Assembly (NCBI GenBank): GCA_030654395.1 | Contig: JAURXM010000132.1 | Location: 248,001-312,000, forward strand | Length of the DNA: 64,000 bases | Source of the DNA: Aquabacterium sp. | GTDB taxonomy: Bacteria > Pseudomonadota > Gammaproteobacteria > Burkholderiales > Burkholderiaceae_C | Direction: 5' to 3' | Part shown: piece after piece, positions 5,686 through 60,796 of the stretch | Numbering within the stretch: position 1 is the stretch's first letter | How the letters are laid out: each line of letters opens with the position of its first letter | Position numbers and translations under genes: made by a program | The notes under the pieces: generated by a model | The model's database searches: none | Told to the model about the DNA's origin: nothing | What the model saw: the letters and a program-made list of their open reading frames with translations, nothing else

Positions 5686-5731
5686 GGCATGGGGCATGTT
5701 AAGTGGACATGCTAGAATTTAAGACTTGGAA

Positions 5732-5807
5732 GCCGGTGTAGCTCAGTCGGTAGAGCAGCTCATTCGTAATGAGAAGGTCGGGTGTTCGATTCATCTCTCC
5801 GGCACCA
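5732..5807 (+). tRNA. tRNA-Thr (anticodon CGT)
   Basis: A full cloverleaf of 76 nt with encoded CCA. The anticodon loop TTCGTAA presents CGT, which reads ACG (Thr). The D arm is GCTC/GAGC and the T loop is TTCGATT. The acceptor stem GCCGGTG/CTCCGGC pairs except for a U-U opposition at the sixth pair, and the T stem GGGTG/CATCT uses two G-U pairs. The G-A opposition at the top of the anticodon stem is also found in E. coli tRNA-Thr. A TAGAAT box at 5713-5718 is a plausible -10 element, and a terminator follows. Confidence 0.95.
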
Positions 5808-5823
5808 ATTAAATCAAGCACTT

Positions 5824-5856
5824 AGCCCAGTTCGCAAGACTGGGCTTTGTTGTTTT
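5824..5856 (+). terminator. Rho-independent terminator of tRNA-Thr
   Basis: Perfect 7-bp stem AGCCCAG (5824-5830) / CTGGGCT (5840-5846) around a 9-nt loop, followed by TTTGTTGTTTT. It ends the tRNA transcript before the convergent hydrolase gene. Confidence 0.85.
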
Positions 5857-5866
5857 CGGCGCAGCT

Positions 5867-6838: not shown

Positions 6839-8139
6839 GCAGCTGCCTTGGGTCTGGCAGGTGCTACGGATGCGTGTTGGCTGGACTTGCTCTCTCCTGT
6901 ATCGGCTCCATGGGCTTTGATCGCGAAATCGTGTGTCACAGGGGGGGACCAAGTGGAGGGGCCCGTCAAAATGCGCCACCACATGAGCAAGCCGCGGTTA
7001 TGCCACAACTCATGGGCTATCTGCGCAACGCCCGCAGTCAAGAGGCGAATTGGGTTGTGCACCAGCGGTGGTTGTCCGTGCAGACCTAGGCGAGGCGGCG
7101 TGGCGGTCAGTGGTTTGTAGGTGCCAAACAGGCGATCCCAGATAAAAAAGAAGCCTGGGCCAATGTTCACGGTGTTGTTGTTACTGACCCGCTCACAGTC
7201 AATCTCCGACGAGTGGTGCAACACGTGATGTAGCCCTTGGCTGTAAGCCAGCGATAGCCAACGAGCCCACGGTTTACGCACATATTCGGTATAGACAGCA
7301 GGGCTGTGGCCGAAGATTTCGGCGATGTAAGTCACCAGATGCAGCCCGATGATCTCCATGTACAGCGGTTCTGGATAGCACAGGCGAGACAAGGCGCCGA
7401 AGAGCAACAAATAGGGCGGAGCCAGCAAGATGAAGAGCGGGAAAGACATGAATACCGGCAGCGCGGTGGCGTAAGTCAAGTGCGGTGTCATGTGATGAGG
7501 GCGGTGCAGCACCAGCCATAGCGCACGGCGGGTGTGGCTGAGGCGGTGCAGCCAGTAATGCGCGAAGGACCATACCGTGATCGTGGCGACCGCTGCGGCC
7601 CAGCGCGGTAACGCCACGATGGTGGGAACCTGTTGAACCCACGTGGCGCAAAGCCCAACCAAGTGATCCATGGCTTGCAGTCCTGTCTCTGCGTTCAGTC
7701 CGCACAGCCATGCCAGCGCACCTAAAGCCATCAGTAAGGCAGGCGCGAACAGCATATTCAGCAGATTGAGTAAACCGAATGTGATGAGTTCTCGCATGGG
7801 CACGTCCGTGCCGAGCTGGCTTCGATATGAGGCATACCCCTTGAAGACGATGTAACCCCGGAAGGTGGCATTCAGCGTGATCAGTCCCAGCAGCAACATC
7901 AGCGGGATCGCATTGCGCTGATCCAAGGACCAATTTGCAACCGCATCAACCAATGCGGCCAGGTGTCTGAAAGTGAATTCATCACCCAGGCCGGGCCCCA
8001 GAAAAAGAAAATGAAAGCTGGTCAGCAATGCAAGGGGGTAGAGGATGGCGAACAAGGCCACATAGCCCGTGGCCACTGGCCTAAACCAGGCTGGGGGCTC
8101 GGGGATTTCCGCCGAGAACAAGCGGTGCAAGAGGGGCAT
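6835..8139 (-). CDS. sterol desaturase / fatty acid hydroxylase family protein
   Basis: Integral-membrane di-iron oxygenase of 434 aa. The histidine clusters expected of the family are present: HYWLHR (HX3H), HRPHH (HX2HH) and HHVLHHSSE (HX2HH), among four or more hydrophobic segments. The start at 8139 is chosen because GGAGA lies six bases upstream; a start at 8190 has no ribosome-binding site. The gene is translationally coupled to the hydrolase (ATGA) and divergent from a TetR gene, which is the natural candidate regulator. The exact substrate (sterol, hopanoid or fatty acyl chain) cannot be read from sequence. Confidence 0.9.
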   Translation of the reverse strand: MPLLHRLFSAEIPEPPAWFRPVATGYVALFAILYPLALLTSFHFLFLGPGLGDEFTFRHLAALVDAVANWSLDQRNAIPLMLLLGLITLNATFRGYIVFKGYASYRSQLGTDVPMRELITFGLLNLLNMLFAPALLMALGALAWLCGLNAETGLQAMDHLVGLCATWVQQVPTIVALPRWAAAVATITVWSFAHYWLHRLSHTRRALWLVLHRPHHMTPHLTYATALPVFMSFPLFILLAPPYLLLFGALSRLCYPEPLYMEIIGLHLVTYIAEIFGHSPAVYTEYVRKPWARWLSLAYSQGLHHVLHHSSEIDCERVSNNNTVNIGPGFFFIWDRLFGTYKPLTATPPRLGLHGQPPLVHNPIRLLTAGVAQIAHELWHNRGLLMWWRILTGPSTWSPPVTHDFAIKAHGADTGESKSSQHASVAPARPKAAA

Positions 8140-8224
8140 GTCAGTCTCCAGATGGCGTCGTCGACCTTGGATCCAAGAGAACTTGGGCATCCACAGTCAA
8201 TCTGGTCTGACTATAATTCGTAAA

Positions 8225-8246
8225 AATACTCGCATAATACTCGCAT
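8225..8246. repeat. tandem 11-bp repeat at TetR start, candidate operator
   Basis: AATACTCGCAT occurs twice head to tail (8225-8235 and 8236-8246), the second copy including the AT of the tetR start codon. A TATAAT box lies just upstream at 8212-8217. The position between divergent genes makes an operator plausible. The direct, non-palindromic repeat is unusual for TetR proteins, so this is a hypothesis. Confidence 0.4.
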
Positions 8247-8886
8247 GTCTGAGAGACACATACCCTTACCCACGCATGCACTGATCAAGATTCCCCGTCA
8301 GCCACGCTCCATCTTGATGGTGCACAGCATCTTGGATTCGGCGATCGAGGTGATTCAGGTAGAAGGTTTGGCGGCCATGTCCACCAACCGTGTGGCTGAA
8401 CGTGCGGGTGTCAGCATTGGCTCGTTGTATCAGTACTTTGCCAACCGGGACAGCATCCTCGCAGGCGTCATTGAGCGCTCGTTACTGGATGTTCAAAACA
8501 TGCTGTCCATGATGCACATGGATATGCTGAACACCCCCATGCAAGATGGGGTGCGCATCATGCTGATGGCGATGCTACGCTACTACGATCCTTGGATGGA
8601 GGTGCTGCGCAGGGTGTTTCGTGAGGCGCCACTACTTGCGGACAATGGTCTTATTCTGCTGGTCGAGCGCATGTTGTTGGATCAGTTTCGCGACTACCTG
8701 CTGCACAACAGCCACCGTTATCGCATCAAGGGTGGCAAGGCAGGGTTGCACACGGTGATCAGCGCGCTGGCTTTTCTCTATCTGCGTTGGTTGGTGCAGC
8801 CATTTCCGCATGTCACCGAGGAGGCCTTTGTGGAGGCCATGCTGCAACTGCTCATGGGTATGGTCGATGAACCCATTCAGGCTTGA
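8245..8886 (+). CDS. TetR/AcrR family transcriptional regulator
   Basis: 213 aa. The N-terminal helix-turn-helix (about residues 40-70) reads MSTNRVAERAGVSIGSLYQYFANRDSI, a standard TetR DNA-binding helix pair. The C-terminal ligand/dimer domain is not diagnostic. No Shine-Dalgarno sequence precedes ATG 8245; instead two 11-bp repeats abut it, so the message could be leaderless or the start could be the ATG at 8317. Divergent orientation to the sterol desaturase operon suggests it controls that operon and itself. Confidence 0.88.
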   Translation: MSERHIPLPTHALIKIPRQPRSILMVHSILDSAIEVIQVEGLAAMSTNRVAERAGVSIGSLYQYFANRDSILAGVIERSLLDVQNMLSMMHMDMLNTPMQDGVRIMLMAMLRYYDPWMEVLRRVFREAPLLADNGLILLVERMLLDQFRDYLLHNSHRYRIKGGKAGLHTVISALAFLYLRWLVQPFPHVTEEAFVEAMLQLLMGMVDEPIQA

Positions 8887-9004: not shown

Positions 9005-10183
9005 TCAACCCCGCCAAACAACCAGATACCCTTGGATAGGTTGGTGGTTTTCTGTGCGGATGGTCGCAGCCGTCATCTCCAGCGTGGTGAAGCCATTGGC
9101 CATGGCCAGGCGGTTGATGTAGCTGGGTGATTGCCGATAGCGGCCCGTGTTTTGAAGCTCATACCCGACTGACGCTGCTTGATTGTCGGGTGCAGGTTCA
9201 AGCGCCTCGATGGAGAAAGCAAAGATCCCACCTGGTCGCAGCAGTCTTTTGACCTCAGCGATGACCTCGTCCAGTTTGCCGATGTAGATAAACACATCCG
9301 CTGCAAAAGCCAGGTCGTAGCTCGCAGGTGCTTCGTTCTGCATCATCGTCAACAAATCAGAATGTACCAAGCGTTGATACAGGCCACGTGCTTTGGCCTT
9401 GTCCAGCATCTTGGCAGACAGGTCAACGCCTACAATCTGTGCAGCCAGTGACGATGCGGCCACACCTATGAGGCCTGTTCCGCAGCCTAGGTCCAGCGCG
9501 ACACGCTGGCTGGCAGAGGGGGATTCGGATGCGTGCTTGGACACCATGGTAACGAGCCGTTTGGGGGCATCGTACTGAAGCACGTTCTGCAAGTGGTTGT
9601 CGAACTTGTCGGCGTAGTTGTCGAAGACGCCTTCTACATACTTGTCTGGGGCTCGCTCTGTGGTGATGCCGCTGAGTGAGGCGACTTGGTGCAGTGCTTC
9701 GCTGTCTTGGGGTTTGAACTTGAGCTTTTGCTGGAAGCTGGCCAAGGCTTCTTTGAGTTTGCCCTGATCTCTGAGGGCATCGCCTAAGTTGCCGTAAGGC
9801 TCGGCAAAATCGGGTTTGAGCTCCAGTGCTCGGCGATAGCAGGCAATCGCTTGCTCAGTTTTACCTAATGCTTTGAGGGTGACGCCAAGGTTGTTGAATG
9901 CCTCATAGTCGGCTGGCATCAGTTGCACGGCCTTTTGCATGGGCTCTAACGATTCGTCGGTTCGCCCCAGTTGTCTCAACACTGCTCCCAAGACCTTCCA
10001 GCCCAAGCTTTCGCGGGGGTATTGTTTGGTCATGGTTTTGGCGCAGGCCTCCGCTTGGGTGAACTGACCTTGGCTGTACAAAGTGACCAGCCACTGCCGC
10101 TCAAAATCGCTGGGCTCTTTGCCACGTTTTGCCTTGGGCTCTTTGAGTTGGGGCGTGCGGAGGTGGTCAAACTGGTTTGTCAT
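9005..10183 (-). CDS. TPR-repeat methyltransferase
   Basis: 392 aa. The N-terminal half has about four tetratricopeptide repeats (for example AFNNLGVTLKALGKTEQAI and EPYGNLGDALRDQGKLKEAL). The C-terminal half is a class I SAM-dependent methyltransferase: motif I LDLGCGTGLIG, acidic residue in IVGVDLSAKML, and a later LLRPGG motif. The combination suggests a methyltransferase whose TPR domain docks a partner; the substrate is unknown. The start at 10183 (MTNQFDH) is preferred to a GTG at 10216, but neither has a clear ribosome-binding site. It is divergent from the exonuclease fusion gene. Confidence 0.88.
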   Translation of the reverse strand: MTNQFDHLRTPQLKEPKAKRGKEPSDFERQWLVTLYSQGQFTQAEACAKTMTKQYPRESLGWKVLGAVLRQLGRTDESLEPMQKAVQLMPADYEAFNNLGVTLKALGKTEQAIACYRRALELKPDFAEPYGNLGDALRDQGKLKEALASFQQKLKFKPQDSEALHQVASLSGITTERAPDKYVEGVFDNYADKFDNHLQNVLQYDAPKRLVTMVSKHASESPSASQRVALDLGCGTGLIGVAASSLAAQIVGVDLSAKMLDKAKARGLYQRLVHSDLLTMMQNEAPASYDLAFAADVFIYIGKLDEVIAEVKRLLRPGGIFAFSIEALEPAPDNQAASVGYELQNTGRYRQSPSYINRLAMANGFTTLEMTAATIRTENHQPIQGYLVVWRG

Positions 10184-10352
10184 GAGGTATCCGGAGTTTT
10201 TTATGAATAGATGCACGCTGTCGCGGAATTTTATCTGTGGATAGTGGCTCAGTCAGGTGTGCAAAACCCGGCATCCACAGGGGTGTGGCCTGGCGTGTCC
10301 TGTTAATCTTGGCCCATCTCTTCGCAGCTCACTGTGCTTTCCGCCTCTCGCT

Positions 10353-11759
10353 ATGACAGCCGCTTTATTTCAACCGATGGTCTTTGTTGACCTTGAAACC
10401 ACGGGCTCCAACGGCAATGTGGACCGCATCACCGAGTTGGGTGTGGTGGAGATCGACGAAAATGGCGAGGTGAGCGAGTGGTCCAGCTTGGTCAATCCCC
10501 AGGTGCCGATCCCTGCGTTCATTCAAGGCTTGACCGGTATCTCTGATGCCATGGTCGCTGGTGCGCCTGTATTTGCTGATTTGGCTGATGAGGTGTTCAG
10601 TCGGCTGCAGGGGCGGTTGTTCGTGGCCCACAACGCACGCTTTGATTATGGTTTTTTGAAGTGCGAGTTCAAACGCTTAGGTTTGGATTTCAAAGCGCCC
10701 GTTTTGTGTACGGTGAAGTTATCCCGTCACCTGTACCCGCAATTCAAGAAGCACAGCCTAGATGCCTTGATTGAGCGCCATCAACTCAGCATGCCAGCAA
10801 GGCATCGCGCTTTGGCTGATGCGGCCGCGCTGAGGCAGTTCTGGCATGTTTTGCAAATGCAGATACCGGCAGGGCAACTGGCCGATGCGGTATCGGCTTT
10901 GACTGGCCGCAGCACGTGGCCCGCACACTTGGATATGGCGCTGCTGGACGCGTTGCCCGAGTGCCATGGCGCCTACCTTTTCTTTGGTGAGGGAGATTCG
11001 CCGCTGTATATAGGCAAGTCGAACAATGTGCGTCAACAGGTCTTGGCGCACCTCCACGCGGGTGACAGTCTGGCCAAAGGTCTGCGGCTGGCAGAGCAGG
11101 TTCGCAGAGTCGAGTGGGTCGAGATGCCCGGTGAAATGGGCTCTTTGCTGAAAGAGGCCGAGTTGATCAAGCTGTGGCAGCCGTTGCATAACAAGCGCTT
11201 GCGTCGAACACCTGATTTGTGCACGTGGCGTCTTGTCTCTGTTGATCAAGCAGGGGAGGGCAGCCTCAAGCCTGAGTTGGCGTGGGCACGCGATGTGAAT
11301 TGGGGCGCTGCAGGCCCGGTCTACGGTTTATTCAGTGGCCAACGTGATGCCATCAAGACACTGCGCGAGATGGCAGAGACAGCCCAGCTTTGTTTGGCCA
11401 CGCTGGGCGTGGATGTGGTACCCATGGGGCAGCCTTGCGCGGGCTATCTTACGCAGCAGTGCAGTGGTGCGTGTGTGGGGAAAGAAACCTGGCTTGACCA
11501 CAGTCAGCGCCTGCGGACGGTCATGTCAGATTGGCAAGTCACTGTCTGGCCGTATGCAGGGCCGGTCAAAGTGAAGGAAGGCGTGTGCTGGCATGTGATC
11601 GATGCCTGGTGCTACCTCGGTACGGCAGAGGATGAGGCTGGCGTAGAGGCGTTGCGCAAGGGCGCTCGCCCCGTGTTTGACAAAGATACCTACAAAATTT
11701 TGGTCTCTTGGTTGCCTAAGATGACTGTAACGGCACTGAAATCGCTTTCAGATCAATGA
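10353..11759 (+). CDS. DnaQ-like 3'-5' exonuclease fused to UvrC/Cho-like GIY-YIG domain
   Basis: 468 aa. Residues about 8-175 are a DEDDh exonuclease of the Pol III epsilon type: VFVDLETTG (Exo I), HNARFDYGFL (Exo II) and HRALADAAAL (Exo III). Residues about 200-290 are a GIY-YIG nuclease module (GAYLFFGEGDSPLYIGKSNN). A cysteine cluster near residues 362-375 (PCAGYLTQQCSGACVG) matches the cluster in UvrC and Cho. ATG 10353 is chosen; an upstream ATG at 10257 adds 32 low-complexity residues. The role is probably DNA repair or processing. It overlaps the convergent lipoprotein gene by 7 bases. Confidence 0.88.
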   Translation: MTAALFQPMVFVDLETTGSNGNVDRITELGVVEIDENGEVSEWSSLVNPQVPIPAFIQGLTGISDAMVAGAPVFADLADEVFSRLQGRLFVAHNARFDYGFLKCEFKRLGLDFKAPVLCTVKLSRHLYPQFKKHSLDALIERHQLSMPARHRALADAAALRQFWHVLQMQIPAGQLADAVSALTGRSTWPAHLDMALLDALPECHGAYLFFGEGDSPLYIGKSNNVRQQVLAHLHAGDSLAKGLRLAEQVRRVEWVEMPGEMGSLLKEAELIKLWQPLHNKRLRRTPDLCTWRLVSVDQAGEGSLKPELAWARDVNWGAAGPVYGLFSGQRDAIKTLREMAETAQLCLATLGVDVVPMGQPCAGYLTQQCSGACVGKETWLDHSQRLRTVMSDWQVTVWPYAGPVKVKEGVCWHVIDAWCYLGTAEDEAGVEALRKGARPVFDKDTYKILVSWLPKMTVTALKSLSDQ

Positions 11760-12214
11760 CAGACTGTTTGGTCTGTTGTGATGAAAGCGGTCTGGTTGCG
11801 ATCTCGCGCTTGGGCTGACGCGCACCGGATGTTTTGGCCTTCAACGACGTTTTGCGCACTGACTCTGCAGGTGTCGACGCCATCGCATTGCCGATGTTCG
11901 TGTGCATGGTGCCAGTCGTTCCACCAACTTAGCCGCAAGCCCTCTACAGAACGGCGAGCACCATTGGTGGCGCAGGTGCCATCTGTGATCCAAGCTTCGC
12001 TGTGGGTGTCGCTGTAGATCACAAAGAATTTGTTGCTGTAGCGCAGGTGCAGGCAAAACGGCGTGGCCACGACACCTTGCGCCAGTTCCGGTGACAGGGC
12101 GACGCTGTCAATCATGCGCTCCTCCCCGCTCTGCGGTGGTCGCAAGGTGCAGGCGGTCAGCAAAATGGCCAGCGCTGCGATCAAGAGTACGGTAAGCGGC
12201 TTCATTGGGCTCAT
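11753..12214 (-). CDS. small lipoprotein of unknown function
   Basis: 153 aa (or 150 from the in-frame ATG three codons later). The N-terminus MKPLTVLLIAALAILLTAC is a lipoprotein signal peptide with a lipobox cysteine. The mature part has no domain I recognise; it contains several cysteines and a conserved-looking LHLRYSNKFFVIYSDTHSEAW. It was kept as real because the signal peptide is clear, the frame is uninterrupted and the gene fills the space between its neighbours. The likely location is the periplasmic face of a membrane. Confidence 0.7.
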   Translation of the reverse strand: MSPMKPLTVLLIAALAILLTACTLRPPQSGEERMIDSVALSPELAQGVVATPFCLHLRYSNKFFVIYSDTHSEAWITDGTCATNGARRSVEGLRLSWWNDWHHAHEHRQCDGVDTCRVSAQNVVEGQNIRCASAQARDRNQTAFITTDQTVCH

Positions 12215-12278
12215 GCTGCCATGCCGCTAACAACATGAAGCTTGTTGAAGTGGGGCAGGAGGGCGCTAATTCAGATCG

Positions 12279-13154
12279 TCAACGCAGCAAAAAATCGCGC
12301 ACTTGGTCAGCCGCTTGCACTGGGTTCTCCTGCATGAAGCAATGTCCACCTTCAACTTGTTGTTGATCAATGGCTTTGTTGTCGCGTTGCCAGCTTCTGG
12401 CTGATTCGCCCACGAAAGGGAACGTTTTTTTGCCGTGCAGCACCATCGTCGGGGTGCGTACCTTGTCCAAAAGAGACCAGAGCCTGTCAGGCATGGTGCC
12501 AAACACATCTGCCTCCAAGCTGGGTGTGCATTTCAAGCTCACGCCACCTTGTGGGTCATCTTTGAGTGCATGGTTGACGAAGGCACGCAAGGCCTCATCA
12601 GCCCAGCCTTTGTAGACGCCTCGCCCGTGGAGCAAGTCATAGGCCTCATCTCGGCTGGGCCATTGGTGGCGTCGTCCTCGGGCCTGTGTCGCCATGGGGG
12701 CGTGTTTGAGCATGCCCGTCATGCTGGCCATCGACATGCCCATCAGCATGGTTGGCGTGAACAGGACGGGGTCCAGCAGCACAGCACGGGCAAAGCGCGT
12801 GGGCGTCTCACCCAGCGTCAAGCTGGTGAGTACGCCACCGAAGCTGTGCCCCAGCGCGTAATGCGGGACATCCTTGAATGCCCTATTTTGCTGATCAAAG
12901 GCGGCCATTGCCAAGGCCGCGTTGCCGTTCCAGCCCAGAAAGCGCCCTCCTTGGTCGCTGTCGCCGTGGCCCTGCACATCGCACAACCACAGATCGAAGT
13001 CGATCGCCAGCTTTTGCAGCATGGGCTCATACATGCGGCCGCAAAAACCATTGCCATGCAAAAAATGCAGAAGAGGCTTGCCTGATGGGGTTGAATGCCA
13101 GCCACGGATGGTGAAATGCTCGGGGGCGGTGTATTGCCAAGGCGTTAACTGCAT
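12279..13154 (-). CDS. alpha/beta hydrolase
   Basis: 291 aa. It has FLHGNGFCGRMYEPM (oxyanion loop), DVQGHGDSD, the nucleophile elbow GHSFGG and a C-terminal VEGGHCFMQENP with the catalytic His. This is the standard order for a cytosolic alpha/beta hydrolase of the esterase/lipase type. No signal peptide. It is divergent from the RND efflux operon and follows the same strand as the small lipoprotein. Substrate unknown. Confidence 0.88.
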   Translation of the reverse strand: MQLTPWQYTAPEHFTIRGWHSTPSGKPLLHFLHGNGFCGRMYEPMLQKLAIDFDLWLCDVQGHGDSDQGGRFLGWNGNAALAMAAFDQQNRAFKDVPHYALGHSFGGVLTSLTLGETPTRFARAVLLDPVLFTPTMLMGMSMASMTGMLKHAPMATQARGRRHQWPSRDEAYDLLHGRGVYKGWADEALRAFVNHALKDDPQGGVSLKCTPSLEADVFGTMPDRLWSLLDKVRTPTMVLHGKKTFPFVGESARSWQRDNKAIDQQQVEGGHCFMQENPVQAADQVRDFLLR

Positions 13155-13315
13155 GGTCTGCTGGTAAATGAGGTCAGTTATACATTGTGCCTACATCGCA
13201 AGCGCTTTGTGTCCATTGGCTTGTTTAATGGGCGTGAACGGGAGTTCTTGGGATTCTGGTAGAAAGGATCCCGTGCGGTTCGCACAGCGTGGATAACGGT
13301 ATCGGGGAATTGGGT

Positions 13316-14419
13316 ATGTTGAGCGTGTTGAAGCAGCGTGGCTGTTGGTTTGTCTTGGCCGTCGCAGGCGTGTCTGGGGTGGTTTGGTCTCACGCTCATG
13401 CGGGTACGCCAGCTGTGGCTGTGAAGGCCGCGTTGACGGTTCAGGTGGTCAAGCCGCAATCGGGTTCATGGCCCACGTTGGTGACAGCCAATGGCGCCAT
13501 CGCTGCGTGGCAGGAAGCCATTGTGGGCGCTGAGTTGTCAGGCTTGAGGTTGCTTGATGTCATGGTCAACGTAGGCGATCGCGTCAAACGAGGCCAGGTA
13601 TTGGCCACTTTGCAAAGTGAGGCGGTCGCAGCCGATGTGAACACGGCACGCGCAGGGTTGTCAGAAGCTGAAGCGCTGTTCTCTGAAGCACACGCCAATG
13701 CCGCCCGTGCCAGATCCTTACAAGGCAGCGGTGTCTTGAGCAACCAAGACGCACAGCGTGCCTTGACAGCCGAGAAGACGGCCGCAGCACACGTCGATTC
13801 GGCCAAAGCTCAACTGGCAGCGCAGTCACTGCGCTTGCGTCAGACGCGTGTATTGGCACCTGATGATGGCGTGATATCGAACAGGTTGGCCACATTGGGC
13901 GGCGTCGTCCAGCCTGGACAAGAGTTGTTTCGCTTGATCCGGCAAGGGCGTTTGGAGTGGCGTGCTGAGTTGCCTGCGGGTGACTTGTCGCGCGTCAAAG
14001 TGGGCATGCTGGCTTGGGCCACGCCGCCCGGTGGCGTGGCGGTGCAAGGGCGGGTGCGCATGGTTGCACCCACAGTAGATGGGCAGAGCCGAAACGGCCT
14101 GATTTATGTCGATTTGCCTGCCGCTGCCGCCACCGCTGGTGCCCGCGCAGGCATGTTCGCTTCAGGGCGCATCGAGACAGGCCAGTCGCCAGGTTTGAGC
14201 CTGCCGCAAACGGCAGTGCTGCTGCGTGACGGGTTCAGCTACGTTTTCAAAGTCAATGCGAACAACACGGTGGCCCAAGTCAAGGTGGCGGTTGGGCGGC
14301 GTTTGGGCGACCGTGTTGAGGTCACACAAGGGCTAGATGCACAAGCTGATGTCGTGGTCTCAGGCGTGGGCTTTTTGAGCGATGGTGACACCGTGCGCAT
14401 CGTGAAGGGCCAGCCATGA
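13316..14419 (+). CDS. RND efflux periplasmic adaptor (membrane fusion protein)
   Basis: 367 aa from ATG 13316. A hydrophobic N-terminal signal (FVLAVAGVSGVVWSHAHA) is followed by a biotinyl-lipoyl-like half (VGAELSGLRLLDVMVNVGDRVKRGQVLATL), an alpha-helical hairpin rich in Ala and Glu, the second half-motif (ADDGVISNRLATLGGVVQPG) and a beta-barrel. This is the HlyD/AcrA layout. The stop overlaps the pump gene as ATGA. A GTG at 13289 is an alternative start. No outer-membrane channel gene is adjacent. Confidence 0.92.
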   Translation: MLSVLKQRGCWFVLAVAGVSGVVWSHAHAGTPAVAVKAALTVQVVKPQSGSWPTLVTANGAIAAWQEAIVGAELSGLRLLDVMVNVGDRVKRGQVLATLQSEAVAADVNTARAGLSEAEALFSEAHANAARARSLQGSGVLSNQDAQRALTAEKTAAAHVDSAKAQLAAQSLRLRQTRVLAPDDGVISNRLATLGGVVQPGQELFRLIRQGRLEWRAELPAGDLSRVKVGMLAWATPPGGVAVQGRVRMVAPTVDGQSRNGLIYVDLPAAAATAGARAGMFASGRIETGQSPGLSLPQTAVLLRDGFSYVFKVNANNTVAQVKVAVGRRLGDRVEVTQGLDAQADVVVSGVGFLSDGDTVRIVKGQP

Positions 14420-52788: not shown

Positions 52789-53440
52789 GTGGGGTAACCC
52801 GGTCCATCTGCCACAGCACGATCACCAAGCCGACGGAGGCCATTGGGCCGATCAAGGGGTGCACGATCGACACAACAACAGGTGCCACCATCAGCAAAGC
52901 ACGCAGCCCAAAGCTGTAAAGCACGCCAGCTTGCCTGACATGGGCGACGCCCACAGGCAGCCATTGCCGGCGTGCGGCTGAGCCCACAGGCATGGCGCTG
53001 ATGAAGCTGGCGTGGCTGAAGTAGCGCACAGCCATGGTCGAGCAGACCAGCGCAGCAAACAAGGTCGACATCAGCAGCAGTTCCATCACCAAGCGCGGGC
53101 TGATCGTGGGCCACTGCACGTCGTTAGGGCCAAAGGTGGCGTGCAGTTGGGTGGCTGTCAGTGTGATGGCCCCCATCAAGCCCAAAGTGGCTGTGGTGGC
53201 GGTGAGTGTGGCGGACATCATCGCATTGCGCAGTGTTTGCACAGCGACAATCTCTGCGCCGGGGTGTTCACTGCTGGCGAGCATCCACGCCTCACGCAGG
53301 TCGGCGTGTGCAGAGCGTGCGAACTGCTCAGGCTTGCCTTGGTATCGCCTGCGTTGGATCAGTTCATACGCCAGAACAATGAGCAAGGTGGCGGCCTCAG
53401 CCAACCAGACCATGATGTCTGTAGGCAGCATGCTGTTCAT
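52760..53440 (-). CDS. DUF599 membrane protein
   Basis: 226 aa with four hydrophobic segments and the typical DUF599 features QTLRNAMMSATLTATTATLGLMG and YFSHASFISAMPVGS. Function unknown. It is coupled by ATGA to the YeeE/YedE gene upstream and so belongs to the bigR operon, suggesting a role near sulfur transport or stress. Confidence 0.85.
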   Translation of the reverse strand: MNSMLPTDIMVWLAEAATLLIVLAYELIQRRRYQGKPEQFARSAHADLREAWMLASSEHPGAEIVAVQTLRNAMMSATLTATTATLGLMGAITLTATQLHATFGPNDVQWPTISPRLVMELLLMSTLFAALVCSTMAVRYFSHASFISAMPVGSAARRQWLPVGVAHVRQAGVLYSFGLRALLMVAPVVVSIVHPLIGPMASVGLVIVLWQMDRVTPLKHASKSHG

Positions 53441-53850
53441 TTGTGCTTCTCCAGTTGATCAAAGATGACCATGCCCAGCAGCATGGCACCGATGAACAGC
53501 ATGGCTGGGCGTTGTCCGTTCCCAAGTGCCACCAAGGCTGGGCCGGGGCAATAACCAGCCAAGCCCCAGCCGATGCCAAACATGATGTTGCCCACGACAA
53601 GGCGGCGGTCAATATGTGACGCTGTCGGCATTTTTAAGGGTAGACCCAGCAGTGATGTCTGGCGCTTTTTGATGCCATGAAACCCGATCAACCCGACTGC
53701 GATGGCGCCAGCCATGACCAAGGCCAGAGACGGATCCCATTGACCAAAAAGATCCAAGTAGCCCAGTACCTTGGCCGGGTTGGTCATGCCAGACAAAATC
53801 AAGCCTAGGCCAAAAACCAGCCCCGAGATGAGTGCGGTGAATATCGACAT
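53437..53850 (-). CDS. YeeE/YedE-family half-transporter (PmpB-like)
   Basis: 137 aa, four membrane segments. GLVFGLGLILSGMTNPAKVLGYLDLFG and NIMFGIGWGLAGYCPGPALVALG carry the conserved cysteine/GxxxxGxCPGP segment of this sulfur-transport family (thiosulfate-type TsuA relatives). It pairs with the preceding 144-residue half, together making one eight-segment transporter. Probably moves a reduced sulfur compound. Confidence 0.9.
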   Translation of the reverse strand: MSIFTALISGLVFGLGLILSGMTNPAKVLGYLDLFGQWDPSLALVMAGAIAVGLIGFHGIKKRQTSLLGLPLKMPTASHIDRRLVVGNIMFGIGWGLAGYCPGPALVALGNGQRPAMLFIGAMLLGMVIFDQLEKHK

Positions 53851-53860
53851 GTTGACCCCT

Positions 53861-54295
53861 TTAGATGTTGATCAGGTGGCGTATCACGTAGACGGTGGCA
53901 AAGCCCGAGCCCATGAAGATCAGCGTGGCCACAAGTGAGCGCGTCGATAGCCTAGACAGGCCGCAGACGCCGTGCCCACTGGTGCAGCCTGATCCATAGC
54001 GCGTGCCCAGCCCGACTGTCAAGCCGGCGATGATCAGCGTGCTGTCGCTGGCCATGACCTGCACGCTGGGCATCGGGGCGACCCATGCGTAGAGCCATGA
54101 TGAGACCAGCAGCCCACCGATGAAGGCTGCACGCCAAGCGATATCACCCTGAGTCGGTTTGAGCAATCCGCCCAAGATGCCGCTGATGCCCGCAATGCGG
54201 CCATTGAGCCACGCCAGCTTCACGGCGGTTAAACCAATCAGCAGGCCACCTGCTAGGGCTGGCCATGGGGTAAATGCAGTCCAGTCGATCGTCAT
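53861..54295 (-). CDS. YeeE/YedE-family half-transporter (PmpA-like)
   Basis: 144 aa, four membrane segments. GLLIGLTAVKLAWLNGRIAGISGIL and GTRYGSGCTSGHGVCGLSRL are the hallmarks, with the two cysteines likely handling sulfur. GGAG in the 3' end of bigR serves as ribosome-binding site for ATG 54295. Its partner gene follows after 10 bases. Confidence 0.92.
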   Translation of the reverse strand: MTIDWTAFTPWPALAGGLLIGLTAVKLAWLNGRIAGISGILGGLLKPTQGDIAWRAAFIGGLLVSSWLYAWVAPMPSVQVMASDSTLIIAGLTVGLGTRYGSGCTSGHGVCGLSRLSTRSLVATLIFMGSGFATVYVIRHLINI

Positions 54296-54297
54296 AC

Positions 54298-54624
54298 TCA
54301 GTCTCCTTTGGGGCAGTACAGCTGATAGAGCAATTGCAAGATAGCCAGTGTGTTGGCATCCGCCACGCTGTAGAAAATGTGCTTGCCTTGTCGGCGTGTG
54401 TTGACCAAACCCTCTTGCCGCAGCACGCTCAGTTGTTGCGACAGGGTCGGTTGTCGGATGTTGAGCAAAGCTTCCAACTCACTGACGCAATGCTCGCCTT
54501 GTGTCAGTTGGCACAGCAGCAGCAAGCGGTCTTCGTTGGCGAGCAGCTTCAGGGTGCTGACAGCACTTGATGCGGCGGCGCGAAGTTGCACGGGGTTGGT
54601 GCTGATCAATGTGTCGTCATTCAT
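54298..54624 (-). CDS. ArsR-family sulfide/persulfide-sensing repressor (BigR/SqrR-like)
   Basis: 108 aa winged-helix protein with the DNA-reading segment CVSELEALLNIRQPTLSQQLS. Cysteines at 38 and 104 are 66 residues apart, the spacing of the sensing pair in BigR and SqrR; an extra Cys46 lies beside them. No metal-site ELCVCDL motif is present. It heads the transporter operon and is divergent from the persulfide-dioxygenase-like gene, matching known bigR loci. Confidence 0.92.
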   Translation of the reverse strand: MNDDTLISTNPVQLRAAASSAVSTLKLLANEDRLLLLCQLTQGEHCVSELEALLNIRQPTLSQQLSVLRQEGLVNTRRQGKHIFYSVADANTLAILQLLYQLYCPKGD

Positions 54625-54663
54625 GTTGACATTAGTTTATAAAAAGATATATTATTTGTCAAC
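54625..54663. promoter_or_regulatory. overlapping divergent bigR/persulfide dioxygenase promoters
   Basis: GTTGACA (54625-54631) and TGTCAAC (54657-54663) are perfect inverted copies that provide -35 boxes on both strands. On the plus strand TTGACA (54626-54631) is 16 bases from TATATT (54648-54653). On the minus strand TTGACA (54662-54657) is 15 bases from TATAAA. The two core promoters occupy the same DNA. Confidence 0.6.
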
Positions 54664-54673
54664 ATATTATTTG
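54649..54673. repeat. direct repeat, candidate BigR box
   Basis: ATATTATTTG occurs at 54649-54658 and 54664-54673, a 15-base period, in an AT-rich region overlapping the divergent promoters. BigR boxes are AT-rich, so a bound repressor would block both promoters. Confidence 0.5.
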
Positions 54674-54695
54674 AATCTCACCAAGGACACGCACC

Positions 54696-55574
54696 ATGAG
54701 TCTGCACACGACACCCCACGGCACGGTTGAGGCGTTCTTTGACCCCGCCACATGGACGGTCAGCTATTTGGTGGTCGATCCCGAGACGCGTCAAGCGGCC
54801 ATCGTCGACCCCGTGCTTGACTTTGATGTCAAAGCGGGGCGCACCAGCACCACCTCGGCGGATCAGATTTTGGCGCGGGTGGCTGAACAGGGCTTGAGCA
54901 TCAGCTGGATTTTGGAGACCCATGCCCACGCCGATCACCTGTCTGCGGCTGCCTACATCAAGGCCAAGGTGGGCGGTCAAATCGCCATAGGTAGACGTAT
55001 CCAACAGGTGCAAAAAACCTTCAAAGCGCTGTTCAATATGGAGAGTGATTTCGTGCCTGATGGGCGGCAATTTGATCACCTGTTTGATGACGATGAGGCA
55101 TTCAACATTGGCTCGCTCAAAGCCCAAGCACTGGCCGTGCCGGGCCACACACCTGCGGACATGGCCTACATGGTTGATGGCGTGGTGCTGGTGGGGGACA
55201 CCTTGTTCATGCCGGACGTGGGCACAGCGCGGGCCGACTTCCCTGGCGGTGATGTGCGGGCGCTGTACAGGTCGATCCGGCGTTTGTTGGCTTTGCCTGG
55301 GGACACGGCCTTGTTCGTTTGCCACGACTACCCGCCAGCAGGGCGTGAGCCGCGCTGGCTCACCACGGTGGCCGATCAGCGTGCCCACAACATCCACGTG
55401 CACGATGGCGTGAGCGAGGACGCTTTTGTGGCCATGCGTCAGGCCCGCGATGCCAGCTTGGAGATGCCCACGTTGATCTTCCCGTCTGTGCAAGTCAACG
55501 TGCGAGCAGGCGAGATGCCGCCACCTGAGGATAATGGTCTGCGCTACCTCAAAATACCCCTGAATGCGCTGTGA
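54696..55574 (+). CDS. MBL-fold persulfide dioxygenase-like protein (Blh)
   Basis: 292 aa. THAHADH (metal-binding HXHXDH), the second His in AVPGHTPADM and VGDTLFMPDVGTARADFPGG follow the pattern of Blh and ETHE1, which oxidise glutathione persulfide to sulfite. AAGGA lies about eight bases before ATG 54696. The divergent bigR-like gene would repress it until sulfide or persulfide appears. No rhodanese domain is fused. Confidence 0.93.
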   Translation: MSLHTTPHGTVEAFFDPATWTVSYLVVDPETRQAAIVDPVLDFDVKAGRTSTTSADQILARVAEQGLSISWILETHAHADHLSAAAYIKAKVGGQIAIGRRIQQVQKTFKALFNMESDFVPDGRQFDHLFDDDEAFNIGSLKAQALAVPGHTPADMAYMVDGVVLVGDTLFMPDVGTARADFPGGDVRALYRSIRRLLALPGDTALFVCHDYPPAGREPRWLTTVADQRAHNIHVHDGVSEDAFVAMRQARDASLEMPTLIFPSVQVNVRAGEMPPPEDNGLRYLKIPLNAL

Positions 55575-56221: not shown

Positions 56222-56257
56222 GGTGTGGACTGGTTGACGGTGGGCTATACAATCGCG

Positions 56258-56452
56258 CCTGCTTCAGGTGTCTTTGGCAACGCAAGTTGGCAAAGGTGAA
56301 ACGGGAAGCCGGTGTGATTCCGGCGCTGCCCCCGCAACGGTAAGCGAGTCAAGGCAATTTACACAGCCAATGTGGACCACTGTGCGCAAGCATGGGAAGG
56401 TGAATTGTTCGCGTCATACGCACTCGCCAGCCCGGAGACCGGCCTGAGGACA
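56258..56452 (+). promoter_or_regulatory. cobalamin riboswitch
   Basis: The leader contains the core GGTGAAACGGGAAGCCGGTG, the GCTGCCCCCGCAACGGTAAG loop and, 80 bases on, the B12 box AGCCCGGAGACCGGCC. These are in the order of the class I cobalamin riboswitch aptamer. It occupies most of the 362-base gap 56222-56583. A hairpin (GGCGGGATTTGCCG) close to the following ribosome-binding site suggests control of translation. It should repress the downstream operon when B12 is plentiful. Confidence 0.95.
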
Positions 56453-56583
56453 CAATCCCGATTACTGCGGTGGGCAGTGAGGCGGCGGCACATTTTTGGT
56501 CGCATGCCTTCATCCCCCTTGCTTTGATCGGCCACCTTGAACCTGGCTTGCGGCGGGATTTGCCGTCAGCCCCGGGAGGCGTC

Positions 56584-57384
56584 ATGCGACACACACTATC
56601 TTTGCCCTTTGTTGCCGGGGCCTTGGCCTTTGGCCTTATCAGCACAGCCTATGCAGGCCCGTATGCGCCAGCGGCAGGTAAAGCAGGCTCTACAGCCCTC
56701 AGCATGGACAGCGCCAGCATCGTCCAGTGGGCCACGTCTTATCAAGATTACCTACCTGGCACCGGTGTCGATGCCACTTGGATGACGCCTGAGAAGGCGC
56801 TGGGCCACGCAGTGGGTGATTCTTATGACGTGGTCACGCTGGGCAATGGCGGGCGCATCACCTTGGGCTTTGACGGCTTCATCGCGAACGGCGCTGGCGC
56901 CGACTTTGCTGTGTTCGAGAACAGCTTCAGCGACACCTTTTTAGAGCTGGCTTGGGTTGAGGTGTCATCCAATGGCGCAGACTTCTTCCGCTTGCCTAAC
57001 GCCTCGCTCACACCTGCTGCTGTCGGCGGTTTTGGCAACATCAATCCAACCAATATCGATGGCTTGGCTGGTAAATACCGTCAAGGCTTTGGCACGCAGT
57101 TTGACCTCGATCCCTTGGCTGGCACAGCAGGTTTGGACGTCAACAAGGTCAAGTACGTGCGCATTGTCGACGTGATCGGCAACGGCCAGTCGGTCGACAC
57201 CGCAGGGCGCGTCATTTATGACCCGTACCCCAGCACAGGCTCTGCAGGCTTTGATCTGGACGCCATTGGCGTCATCAACGTGGCCGTCGCGCCCGTGCCT
57301 GAGCCTGCGACTTGGCTTTTGACTGCGTTGGGTTTGGCTTTGCTCGGTTATGCCGCCCGCAAAAACAGCCGCCAAAACGCCTGA
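56584..57384 (+). CDS. PEP-CTERM surface protein, B12-riboswitch regulated
   Basis: 266 aa from ATG 56584, with GGGAGG six bases upstream. A signal peptide (to about residue 24, cleaving near STAYA) is followed by a beta-rich domain with [20 protein letters not shown] and [13 protein letters not shown]. The C-terminus [20 protein letters not shown] then Arg/Lys is a PEP-CTERM signal for exosortase processing and surface anchoring. The ligand is unknown, but the cobalamin riboswitch and downstream BtuB-like receptor point to cobalamin or a precursor. The same frame is open from 56470 but no ribosome-binding site supports that. Confidence 0.88.
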
Positions 57385-57421
57385 TCTGCCCCACACCGCA
57401 TATTATTTTTTGGATACCGTC

Positions 57422-58216
57422 ATGAAAAAACACATCTTGTTTGTGCTGGTCGCAACACTCGTTGGCGCTGCACAAGCGGCCACCACGGCCACCACGGTCA
57501 GCACATTGGACGACCTGACACTGGCGCCTGAGAGCTATTACTTCCCTGAGGCCAGCACAACCTTCACCAGTGGCGCAGCGTCGTTCAGCCACAACTACAC
57601 CGACTACGGCTTTCCAGGTTGCTGCGCCAGTGGTTGGACTTACTCCAACCAAACAGACACGACCACGGCTGGTTACACCAACCAGTACAGCGCCTTGACG
57701 GGTGGCGGCGTCAATGGCTCAGCCAACTATGGCGTGTCGTTTGAGTTGTCAGAGATCACCTTCAGCGCACCAAGCCAAGTCCTGAGCACCTACGTCACCA
57801 ACACCACCTACGCTGGGCTGTCGATGCAGCAAGGCGATGATTTCGCTAAGAAATTTGGCGGCGCCACGGGCAACGATGCAGACTTTTTCATGTTGACGAT
57901 CACAGGACTGAACGGCGCTGGCTCCAGCATCGGCTCGGTTGATGTGTATTTGGCTGACTTCCGTTTTGCTGACAACAGCCAAGACTACATCCTCAACCAG
58001 TGGAGGTTGGTTGACTTGTCCTCACTGGGTACGGTGTCTGCCTTGAAGTTCTCATTGACATCATCCGATGTCGGCAGCTACGGCATCAAGACACCAGCGT
58101 ACTTTGCGCTAGACAACTTGGCTGTGACAACGCCCGTGCCTGAAACCGGCACACTGCTGATGATGGCGGCCGGCTTGGGTCTGCTGGCGCTGCAGCGACG
58201 TAGCACGCGCGCTTAA
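57422..58216 (+). CDS. DUF4465-like surface protein with PEP-CTERM variant
   Basis: 264 aa. Signal peptide MKKHILFVLVATLVGAAQA, then a beta-rich domain with YGFPGCCASGWTYSNQTD, FELSEITFSAPSQVLSTYVTN and DFRFADNSQDYILNQWRLVDLSSLG, which I recognise as DUF4465-like. The C-terminus PVPETGTLLMMAAGLGLLAL then QRR fits a PEP-CTERM signal with Thr in place of the second Pro. Domains of this type also occur in B12-regulated loci of Bacteroidetes to my recollection, so a cobalamin-binding role is a reasonable hypothesis. It lies 37 bases after the first surface protein. Confidence 0.82.
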   Translation: MKKHILFVLVATLVGAAQAATTATTVSTLDDLTLAPESYYFPEASTTFTSGAASFSHNYTDYGFPGCCASGWTYSNQTDTTTAGYTNQYSALTGGGVNGSANYGVSFELSEITFSAPSQVLSTYVTNTTYAGLSMQQGDDFAKKFGGATGNDADFFMLTITGLNGAGSSIGSVDVYLADFRFADNSQDYILNQWRLVDLSSLGTVSALKFSLTSSDVGSYGIKTPAYFALDNLAVTTPVPETGTLLMMAAGLGLLALQRRSTRA

Positions 58217-58229
58217 AAGGGGATTGGAC

Positions 58230-60221
58230 GTGGTGCGCGCAGGCCTAGCGGCTTTATGGATGGCCGCTTGGGCCTTGCCTAGTTTGGCTCAGCAACAGCT
58301 TGAACGGCAGCAAGCCGAGCAGCCATCGGATCAGGCTGAGTTGCCACCTGTGACGGTCTCGGCCAAACGCGCGCCACGTTCTGAGCCACACCATGTCACG
58401 GTCCTCACGGCTGAGGACATTGCCCGCAGCACGGCCACATCGGTCGGTGAGTTGCTCAGCACCGAGGCCAACCTCAATCTGCAAAGCTTGTTTGGCCACG
58501 ACAAAAACGCCACGATTGACATGCGCGGCATGGGCGCCACCGCCGGCAGCAACGTGCTGGTGATACTTGATGGCGTGCGCTTGAACGAGAACGACATGAC
58601 TGGCGCAGACATGTCTGCTGTCACGCTGTCGCAAATCCAGAAGATCGAGGTGCTGCGTGGCGGCGGGGCTGTGCGTTACGGCAATGGCGCAGTCGGCGGC
58701 GTGATCCGCATCACCACCCGAGCTGCCCGATCTGGCCCACCTGAGGCCGAGCTGTCGGTGCAATATGGCAGTTACAACAGCAGCAGTACACGCGTAACCG
58801 CACGCGCCAGCATGGGTGCAGTCAACGGCTTGGTCCAGCTAGGCAAGTCTGACAGTGAGGGCTTTCGTGACAACGGGGGCATGCACACGCATGACCATGG
58901 GCTTGAGCTGCGCATGGCGCCTCAGCTCAATAGCCCCTTGCTTGATTTGTACGTGCGCGCCAATCACCACGATGCTCGTTATGGTTTGCCGGGGCCGCTG
59001 TCAGTTCATGCGCCGTTGGGCACCACCCGGGATCGTCAAGCCACAGTCAGTCCGTTGACAGATGGCGGGCGCACCAACGACGAGAGCATCGCCATGGGCA
59101 TGGTGTGGGCGTTGCCTTTAGGGTCGATTGATCTGCAATGGACACAACGTGATCGCGTCAATCACAGTGAGCTTTCGAGCACCCCATTTCTGACCACATC
59201 AAACAGCCACACCATGGCACTGCAATACAGCGTCAACCAAGAGGTCGGTGGTTTGACGCAAACCCTGCACTTGGGTGTTGAAGGCGTTCAAGGCACCTAC
59301 GCCCGATATAAAGGCGCACCTGACAGTTATGGCTCGGAGCTTCTAGCTGGTCAAGCCAAGTCGCGCAGCATGTATGGTGAAGCGGTGCTGGCACCTGCAC
59401 AAAACCTGAGCTTCAAATTGGGTGCGCGGGCAGAGCAGGCACAGTCGAACCAGACAAAGGGGTTCAACTGGTCAGACGGCTATGAGCAAGACAGCGCACG
59501 AGCCCACCGTTGGTTCAGCCGCAGCTATGAAAGCGGCGTGACGTGGCAAATGAACCCCAAGCTCAGCACCTTCATGAGCTGGAGTCAGCACTTTCGCAGT
59601 CCTAATTTTGATGAGTTGGGGCAGGCCAGCGATTTTCTGCATCCACAAAAAGGGCGCACGATCGAGTGGGGCATGCAAGGGCAACCAGAGCCTACTTTGA
59701 ACTGGTCAGCCACCGCCTTTCACATCCGGATTCAGGATGAAATTTACTACGGTGAGGATGGCCCCGGTCCTGCCGTCAACCGCAATTACACACAAGCGAC
59801 ATTGCGCGACGGCATCGAGCTAAGCGGCAAATGGACGTTCGCCCCCGGCTGGCAAATCGCACCCCAATGGACTGAGTTGCAACCCCGTTTTGAAGGCACG
59901 GGCTTGGACATCCCACTGGTGCCCCGTCGCACGATCAGTGCCCAACTGCGGTGGGATCCCCGGGATGACTTGGGGTGGACGCTGAGCGCAAGGCATGTGG
60001 GCACACGCCAAGATGGCAACAACAGCTTAAACAACCGCTTCCAAAGCCTGGACAGCTACAAAGTGGTGGACACATCCCTGCGCATGGGGTGGGGCGCGGC
60101 CATGTTCACTTTGGGCATCAACAACCTCTTTGGTGAGGTGTACGCGACCCAAAGCTACAGCGACAATATCTACCTGATGCCTGAACGCACCGCCTACTTG
60201 TCGATGCGGCTCAAACTGTAG
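58230..60221 (+). CDS. TonB-dependent outer-membrane receptor, BtuB-like
   Basis: 663 aa from GTG 58230, seven bases after AAGGGG. Signal peptide, a TonB-box-like region (LPPVTVSAKR), a plug domain (TSVGELLSTEANLN, DMRGMGATAGSNVLVILDGV, IEVLRGGGAVRYGNGAVGGVI) and a 22-strand barrel. The length is close to BtuB and the riboswitch leader supports cobalamin import, but some other corrinoid or a tetrapyrrole cannot be excluded. Other possible starts are TTG 58224 and GTG 58233. It is 13 bases after the DUF4465-like gene. Confidence 0.92.
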   Translation: MVRAGLAALWMAAWALPSLAQQQLERQQAEQPSDQAELPPVTVSAKRAPRSEPHHVTVLTAEDIARSTATSVGELLSTEANLNLQSLFGHDKNATIDMRGMGATAGSNVLVILDGVRLNENDMTGADMSAVTLSQIQKIEVLRGGGAVRYGNGAVGGVIRITTRAARSGPPEAELSVQYGSYNSSSTRVTARASMGAVNGLVQLGKSDSEGFRDNGGMHTHDHGLELRMAPQLNSPLLDLYVRANHHDARYGLPGPLSVHAPLGTTRDRQATVSPLTDGGRTNDESIAMGMVWALPLGSIDLQWTQRDRVNHSELSSTPFLTTSNSHTMALQYSVNQEVGGLTQTLHLGVEGVQGTYARYKGAPDSYGSELLAGQAKSRSMYGEAVLAPAQNLSFKLGARAEQAQSNQTKGFNWSDGYEQDSARAHRWFSRSYESGVTWQMNPKLSTFMSWSQHFRSPNFDELGQASDFLHPQKGRTIEWGMQGQPEPTLNWSATAFHIRIQDEIYYGEDGPGPAVNRNYTQATLRDGIELSGKWTFAPGWQIAPQWTELQPRFEGTGLDIPLVPRRTISAQLRWDPRDDLGWTLSARHVGTRQDGNNSLNNRFQSLDSYKVVDTSLRMGWGAAMFTLGINNLFGEVYATQSYSDNIYLMPERTAYLSMRLKL

Positions 60222-60313
60222 TGTGCAGGCTGTGTATTTTTTGATCTAAAGGGGTGGACGCAGCGCGTTGCAAGCAGTAGGCTGAGCTCAACGATTTAAC
60301 TTGAGATCAAGAC

Positions 60314-60796
60314 ATGAAGATGCTGCATTTGGGGGCGCTCGCGGGGGCCTTGTTATCCTTGTTGTTGGCCGGTTGCGCGGTGGAGTGGCAAAACCGCGAG
60401 GCGCAACAAGAAATGGCCGCCTTGTCCAAACCGCCCGGATCGGTCTACACCGGCTGGCGCGTGTTCCAAGACAAGTGCGCTGCATGCCATACCCCAAATG
60501 CCACGGGTGGTAGCCAAGCACCCAACTTGCTGCTGGCGGTGCGTGAGATGGGCCCCAACCAGTTCGTCAGTGTGGTGCTCAAGCGCTATGACTGGGGTAT
60601 GCCCAATGCACGCACTGGCGCGCAGCTTGCCCCGACAAGCCCTTTGGTTGAGGCTATGGTGCAACGCCAAGATGGCGCGTTGACCATGCCCGCGTGGGAG
60701 GGCGAGCCTCGCGTCAGCGCGCATATCGTTGATTTGTATGCTTACTTGTTGGCCCGCGCCGAAGGCACGCAAGGCCCAGGGCGTCCGGCCAAATAG
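60314..60796 (+). CDS. lipoprotein c-type cytochrome
   Basis: 160 aa. Lipobox LLLAGC places the lipid on Cys21. A single heme-binding CAACH (residues 55-59) and a probable axial methionine in LTMPAWEGEP make it a mono-heme cytochrome c. It lies 92 bases after the receptor and may belong to the same operon. An electron-transfer role at the outer face of the inner membrane or the inner face of the outer membrane is likely; a connection with cobalamin (reduction of the cobalt ligand) is only a guess. Confidence 0.85.
   Translation: MKMLHLGALAGALLSLLLAGCAVEWQNREAQQEMAALSKPPGSVYTGWRVFQDKCAACHTPNATGGSQAPNLLLAVREMGPNQFVSVVLKRYDWGMPNARTGAQLAPTSPLVEAMVQRQDGALTMPAWEGEPRVSAHIVDLYAYLLARAEGTQGPGRPAK

Follow-up and report, generated by a model that had tools for sequence, protein, structure and literature searches.

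The window analysed here, a stretch of 64,000 nucleotides (nt) of Aquabacterium sp. (assembly GCA_030654395.1, contig JAURXM010000132.1, positions 248,001 to 312,000), carries a compact operon in which a cobalamin riboswitch precedes genes for two exported proteins, P1 and P2, and a TonB-dependent receptor (Table 1). A first-pass annotation of this DNA had described such an arrangement with short gaps and had proposed a surface corrinoid-capture module. Both the riboswitch and the close spacing were recovered in our analysis. The match to RF00174 covers the full length of the model (positions 1-189) far above its gathering score of 31.5 bits, and is the only one in the window and one of three in the whole genome; our own covariance model, R1, scores the leader at 110.5 bits, the window sequence being among those from which R1 was built. 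The gaps are 122 nt between riboswitch and P1, 37 nt between P1 and P2, and 7-13 nt between P2 and the receptor, while 92 nt separate the receptor from a c-type cytochrome gene. As read from the sequence, the ATG start of P1 is preceded by GGGAGG at 56574-56579, and the receptor open reading frame (ORF) begins with a TTG at 58224, an in-frame GTG at 58230 being better placed behind AGGGG. The N-termini of P1 and P2, judged by eye, resemble ordinary signal peptides. As to an expression platform, the predicted fold of the leader (56249-56610) was no better than those of shuffled sequences (z-score -0.88); a promoter scan (one match) and a terminator scan (nine matches, 5.9 expected) were not telling.

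Table 1. Features of the operon in the window, and tandem riboswitch regions in four related loci (L numbers) of the survey described below.
Feature	Location	Strand	Evidence or remark
Cobalamin riboswitch aptamer, operon leader	56249..56461	+	RF00174; Rfam 111.4 bits, E 4.4e-27
P1, exported, 266 amino acids, unnamed family, possibly BtuH-like, PEP-CTERM tail	56584..57384	+	
P2, exported, 264 amino acids, DUF4465 (BtuJ-type, B12-binding family), PEP-CTERM-like tail	57422..58216	+	PF14717
TonB-dependent receptor, BtuB-like	58224..60221	+	plug and barrel domains; start possibly GTG 58230
c-type cytochrome, lipobox-like start	60314..60796	+	neighbour, probably outside the module
Tandem cobalamin and cyclic di-GMP (c-di-GMP) aptamers, L064	6862-7487	same strand	
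Tandem aptamers, L066	9219-9706	same strand	
Tandem aptamers, L069	3228-3615	same strand	
Tandem aptamers, L237	6951-9033	same strand	own models

The link of the encoded proteins to B12 is clearest for P2. This protein matches DUF4465 at 181.7 bits (cut-off 25; E 2.2e-53), and among solved structures its relatives rank in the order 9hmu, 9qpm, 9fct, 4jqr, 4e9k and 9i2l. The structures 9HMU (D5EK51), 9FCT (BtuJ1) and 9I2L (BtuJ2) are B12 complexes (PMC13398666). In BtuJ1 and BtuJ2 the corrin is ringed by common tyrosines, Tyr97, Tyr146 and Tyr245 (PMC12751083). These residues of BtuJ1, together with Thr242, correspond to Y85, Y130, Y227 and T224 of P2, so that the tyrosines and the TPxY motif of the HI loop are kept. 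B12 binding by the family was published in 2025-2026 (PMC13398666, PMC12751083) and has been reported for eight DUF4465 members that are distant from one another in sequence, six of them new and being the ones that expressed well (PMC13398666). P2 is probably a B12-binding surface protein, largely because of this published binding and of family members with a sorting signature, which are treated below. Among solved structures, the receptor is closest to BtuB proteins, matched in the plug region (E 1.6e-17).

The neighbourhoods of P1 relatives were surveyed with a three-sequence P1 profile, which found at least 234 relatives in GTDB genomes. The best 80 loci were taken by similarity of P1 and not by their neighbours; two of them (L070 and L072) belong to the genomes from which, besides the window, the query sequences had been taken. 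By record title, the loci are from beta-, gamma- and deltaproteobacteria as well as from Planctomycetes, Verrucomicrobia, Spirochaetes and Bacteroidales, among others. R1 was built from 13 riboswitches, including those of the window, of L041 and L042 (which coincide with L072 and L070) and of eight of the 80 loci (L055, L062, L063, L064, L069, L078, L096 and L104). It matched on the same strand upstream of P1 in 68 of the 80 loci, at most 4.5 kb away. Rfam itself was run on 55 loci, where it confirmed 41 of the 43 R1-positive ones and matched none of the 12 R1-negative ones; the two weak R1 matches without Rfam confirmation, in L098 and L121, were not counted. A same-strand cobalamin riboswitch therefore lies upstream of P1 in 66 of the 80 loci, 41 of them Rfam-confirmed. 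Elsewhere in the same loci R1 gave four matches in about 2.14 Mb of strand, a density that predicts about 0.6 matches for the scored zone of 318 kb. A DUF4465 partner was detected in 56 of the 80 loci (fused to P1 in 22, adjacent in 34) and a receptor near P1 in at least 41. On the neighbourhood survey, for which the first-pass annotation had named homologues lying away from B12 riboswitches or receptors as the adverse outcome, the result is favourable to it.

The association is tightest in the 23 loci of betaproteobacterial type, one of which is labelled only 'Proteobacteria'. In all 23 the riboswitch begins at most 400 nt from the start of the P1 ORF, and 22 have both a DUF4465 domain (fused in seven) and a receptor; the exception is L070, whose contig ends 167 nt after P1. 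Moreover, in every betaproteobacterial-type locus that is long enough (22/22), the receptor gene starts at most 300 nt after the end of the DUF4465 gene. Another B12 gene, receptors and ABC ATPases excluded, was found in 10 of the 80 loci and in 3 of these 23. The module of Methylobacillus arboreus (L041, L072) stands within a cobalamin cluster with cobU, btuF-like, bluB, cobN-like, cobB and btuR-type genes. Beside the module there, on the minus strand of L041 at 9501-14281, a gene for a CobN-like protein adjoins a TolQ/ExbB-like gene. Two further arrangements were observed. Nine loci of planctomycete-titled records (L075, L083, L084, L087, L090, L091, L094, L097 and L103) have long ORFs that join P1 to two or three DUF4465 domains, of 1063-2033 amino acids as seen, some being cut by the contig end, with an R1 match starting about 1.1-1.3 kb before the ORF; and L071 (Zavarzinella) has three cobalamin riboswitches at 5211-8727, of which two lie on opposite strands, back to back.

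Beyond these loci, P1 was found at E <=2e-51 in 44 of 149 Bacteroidia genomes; among 18 of the 44 that were examined, 12 have a same-strand riboswitch upstream and eight a DUF4465 domain. In the phylum of one of the deltaproteobacterial-type genomes, 19 of 395 genomes carry P1 at E <=1e-20, including three already known, and an R1 match lies upstream in 12 of the 16 loci that were new (one cut by the contig end). A full-length P1 query matched 36 of 200 genomes of the window's family, but outside the own genome and G186 these matches were tail-only or weak; since that query caught PEP-CTERM tails, the mature P1 domain was used instead. In the window's own phylum, DUF4465 was then found in two of 398 sampled genomes, the own genome being one, and clear P1 in the same two, while two further genomes have marginal P1 matches. 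This patchy distribution suggests that P1 and DUF4465 have spread horizontally.

P1 itself belongs to an unnamed family. No Pfam or NCBIfam model other than tail models matched its body over cut-off, and the mature protein of the window matched no Pfam family at E 0.1; in an alignment of the window P1 with P1 from 67 of the 80 loci, the best Pfam match among the 68 members reached E 0.013. Besides tail models, NCBIfam gave a weak match to the LIC_13355 lipoprotein model (17.7 bits, cut-off 120). An AlphaFold2 model of P1 has a mean predicted local distance difference test score of 96.6, and in a Foldseek search with it the sole PDB chain at E <=0.001 was 8blw_B, the BtuG1 lipoprotein of Bacteroides thetaiotaomicron (E 2e-4). 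The top PDB sequence match of the P1 profile is to the same chain (residues 388-472, E 0.046); these residues are placed in its BtuH domain because BtuH2 (7biz) aligns there. In BtuH, B12 is contacted by Tyr510, Trp511, Trp577, His476, Asn399 and Gln333. An 85-residue BtuH query located five BtuH proteins in the Bacteroidia genomes, and two of them were matched by the P1 profile (whole-genome E 1.8e-4 and 8.3e-4); aligned with the five BtuH domains by hhalign, P1 gave E 3.9e-5. In four of the Bacteroidia genomes (G590, G637, G674 and G707) the P1 profile has 16-20 matches each, mostly over residues 25-120 and often repeated in one long ORF, which may point to a broader domain family that serves some other purpose.

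Several results tell against a relation of P1 to BtuH. The fold match to 8blw is partial (template-modelling score 0.50, root-mean-square deviation 10.7), and Foldseek does not tell which part of 8blw is aligned; muskelin discoidin domains rank close behind it (E 1.1e-3), and 7biz is not among the 50 Foldseek rows listed. The P1 profile did not match 7biz up to E 10, and missed three of the five BtuH loci in the whole genomes. The hhalign alignment is short, at 47 columns with a probability of 70.5 %, and no significant sequence match between P1 and BtuH over the whole domain was obtained. Because the match is short and only two of the five BtuH proteins were matched, we call P1 BtuH-like and not BtuH. 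A distant relation of P1 to BtuH, the B12-binding domain of Bacteroides, is likely on the combined sequence and model comparisons, but not proven.

The partial similarity also bears on what P1 does. P2 alone might bind the corrinoid, with P1 as a docking or lid protein that links P2 to the receptor. BtuK2 and BtuL of B. thetaiotaomicron, which are encoded in B12 operons and bound no cobalamin (PMC12751083), would be the precedent for such a non-binding partner, and the fusion of P1 to DUF4465 in 22 loci, like the confinement of the similarity to part of the BtuH domain, fits a helper. However, when four Bacteroides-type stretches were scanned with the P1 profile, the matches at E <=1 were confined to two of their four BtuH-domain proteins (E 2e-6 and 7e-5, for so small a set), so that P1 was rejected as a BtuL or BtuK; and 24 of the 80 loci have P1 but no detected DUF4465. 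We regard the helper role as possible, if somewhat doubtful.

The tails of these proteins point to anchoring at the surface. The tail of P1 exceeds the Pfam cut-off for PEP-CTERM (29 bits, cut-off 20.7), and four exosortase homologues over cut-off (PF09721) are present in the genome, as the exosortase premise of the first-pass annotation had implied; one lies on the same contig, about 6.7 kb before the window. Among 89 of 113 tails, 48 matched PEP-CTERM (TIGR02595), 19 VPLPA-CTERM, 14 MYXO-CTERM and two type IX sorting models, scored at E 0.01 and not at curated cut-offs, so overlaps between the classes are possible. The 24 tails omitted are mostly from long multidomain proteins and include those of L080, L099, L109, L112, L114, L116, L118 and L119. 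The Bacteroides relatives, in turn, are lipoproteins. As the tail classes differ and the Bacteroides relatives are lipoproteins, the same domains appear to be held by several anchors, which suggests that the capture trait travels between surface-anchoring systems. The signature IPR013424 we take to be that of PEP-CTERM. It is present in 88 of 824 members of the DUF4465 (IPR027828) family (PMC12751083).

A second kind of aptamer was found in loci of deltaproteobacterial type. In L064, L066 and L069, three of the 55 loci run with Rfam, a c-di-GMP-I-type aptamer lies between the cobalamin aptamer and the P1 and P2 genes; the whole genomes hold three, one and two aptamers of this type, respectively. 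A model of the three sequences, which may miss some, found no further tandem in the other 77 of the 80 loci. In L237, one of the 16 further loci, our own models gave three R1 matches, then a c-di-GMP-type aptamer, then DUF4465 and P1. In all four loci the aptamers directly precede DUF4465 and P1 genes with VPxP-type tails. Tandems of adenosylcobalamin and c-di-GMP-I aptamers in the same order are reported in a review for Desulfobacca acetoxidans, with no settled purpose and a guess at conductive pili (PMC9481103); here, in contrast, genes for DUF4465 and P1 surface proteins follow. This suggests joint control by B12 and a cyclic dinucleotide in the tandem loci, for which corrinoid capture would be a simpler reading than pili. 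The module gives the cobalamin/c-di-GMP tandem riboswitches a possible explanation that can be put to the test.

Such control would also suit a matrix store, in which P1 and P2, shed into the exopolysaccharide or fastened there, hoard corrinoids near the cells or deny them to competitors and the hand-off to a receptor is secondary. The cyclic-dinucleotide aptamers, in three loci by Rfam and a fourth by our own models, fit control by biofilm state, PEP-CTERM sorting has been linked with exopolysaccharide (PMC12530212), and no receptor was found beside P1 in 39 of the 80 loci, though the search can miss receptors. The close spacing of DUF4465 and receptor genes in the betaproteobacterial-type loci fits uptake instead, and we consider a store of this sort unlikely.

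The reading we prefer, and think probable, is that the operon of the window is a B12-repressed corrinoid-scavenging system with surface capture by P1 and P2 and uptake through the receptor. When B12 is scarce, the riboswitch would permit expression, judging by the usual OFF behaviour of its family. P1 and P2 would be exported and passed to exosortase at their tails, reaching the cell surface or matrix. There the DUF4465 jelly roll of P2 would bind corrinoid tightly in its loop pocket, as published for its family, while P1, probably a BtuH-like beta-sandwich, would bind corrinoid as well or help to pass the ligand of P2 to the receptor. The receptor would then move the corrinoid across the outer membrane with TonB energy, and a separate btuB-btuFCD operon, which stands under its own riboswitch on the contig of the window, could see to the steps in the periplasm and at the inner membrane. 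Of the two further cobalamin riboswitches in the genome (estimated at 95.6 % completeness and 8.3 % contamination), one lies at a bluB-cobT cluster and the other before this operon, btuB-cobU-btuF-btuC-btuD-cob as named from the ORFs.

A number of findings weigh against this scheme. The hydrogen-bonding Asn241 of BtuJ1 is replaced by Lys in P2. The tail of P2, which the first-pass annotation had counted with that of P1 as PEP-CTERM-type, is PEP-CTERM-like but stays under the curated cut-offs (Pfam 16.6, cut-off 20.7; TIGR02595 12.8, cut-off 16). No riboswitch was detected in 14 of the 80 P1 loci, six of which have at least 8.6 kb of upstream DNA, and of the 24 loci without a detected DUF4465 two (L070 and L123) are at most 170 nt from where the contig ends. 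The own genome has a gene for corrin-ring synthesis, CbiC; the cell may therefore make corrins itself, which weakens a simple argument from need. Finally, the receptor is weakly BtuB-like, its score of 145 bits with TIGR01779 being far under the equivalog cut-off of 599.7, and is termed BtuB-like for that reason.

A siderophore-receptor model scores the receptor slightly higher than the B12 model (156 bits), both being under cut-off, and B12 riboswitches also control cobalt genes. These points would suit another ligand, such as a cobalt complex, haem or an iron chelate, in an operon merely regulated by B12. Since DUF4465 is experimentally shown to be a B12-binding family, P2 keeps the tyrosines and BtuB is what comes closest to the receptor among solved structures, we hold this to be very improbable. 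Corrinoid capture at the surface, as originally proposed, is well supported as an inference from sequence.

The cytochrome is another matter. A c-type cytochrome with a lipobox-like start is indeed encoded behind the receptor, where the first-pass annotation had a lipoprotein cytochrome, but its membership in the module did not stand. No relative was found in the 80 P1 loci (phmmer, E 1e-5), for which reason it is not counted in the unit. Strong relatives (E <1e-50) occur in 4 of 24 other genomes of the same genus, where the flanks that were compared show no match to the neighbouring proteins of the window. Upstream of the operon, at 53437-55574, the window has a sulfide-type locus with a DUF6691 protein and a neighbour, an ArsR-like regulator (named by eye) and a sulfur-dioxygenase-like protein.

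The term 'undescribed', which had been applied to the module, holds in part. B12 binding by DUF4465 and versions of it with PEP-CTERM-type tails are published, as noted above, and P2 is one of the DUF4465/IPR013424 proteins (PMC12751083) by domain and tail type, differing in that its own tail is under cut-off. P1 and the betaproteobacterial operon, on the other hand, were not found described: neither appears in titles or the beginnings of abstracts of the open-access papers that the searches listed, and the portions consulted of the published DUF4465 surveys do not describe P1, its pairing or fusion with DUF4465, or the betaproteobacterial operon. DUF4465 genes are said in one of them often to stand beside other DUFs that resemble accessory proteins of B. 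thetaiotaomicron (PMC13398666), a remark from which it seems that others may have noticed P1. P1 is in any case an unnamed protein family open to assay. To the BtuH domain (7BIZ; the H domain of BtuG1, 8BLW) it is alike in that 8blw is its best fold match and that the profile matches, if weak, are repeated; it differs in that the similarity is to a part, 7biz was not recovered, and P1 is spread across several phyla, whereas BtuH was reported in Bacteroidetes of the gut and in three Firmicutes (PMC8941943). As a tentative extension, to which we give rather less than even credence, P1 and DUF4465 may form a multi-phylum B12-capture module moved between PEP-CTERM, VPLPA-type, type IX secretion and lipoprotein anchors; P1 would then be a new branch of the BtuH superfamily that binds corrinoids, and deltaproteobacterial-type hosts would express the module only at low B12 and high cyclic dinucleotide. 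If true, this would explain the published, unexplained cobalamin/c-di-GMP tandem riboswitches.

Whole surface B12-capture systems are known in detail from gut Bacteroides, and for individual DUF4465 proteins the binding of B12 has been demonstrated over a wider range. The operon of the window would be a compact system of this kind from Proteobacteria that lends itself to testing, and both Planctomycetes and Verrucomicrobia have related ones. The parallel with Bacteroidetes drawn in the first-pass annotation goes beyond analogy: with the B12 loci of B. thetaiotaomicron, which encode BtuB-BtuG and the surface lipoproteins BtuH, BtuJ, BtuK and BtuL, the operon shares a cobalamin riboswitch, a TonB-dependent receptor, a surface protein from the BtuJ (DUF4465) family and a second one that is probably a distant relative within the BtuH superfamily. 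It differs from them in that it lacks the BtuG propeller and btuFCD, its P1 is not BtuH proper, and its surface proteins carry exosortase-type tails in place of lipid anchors, in a host of betaproteobacterial type.

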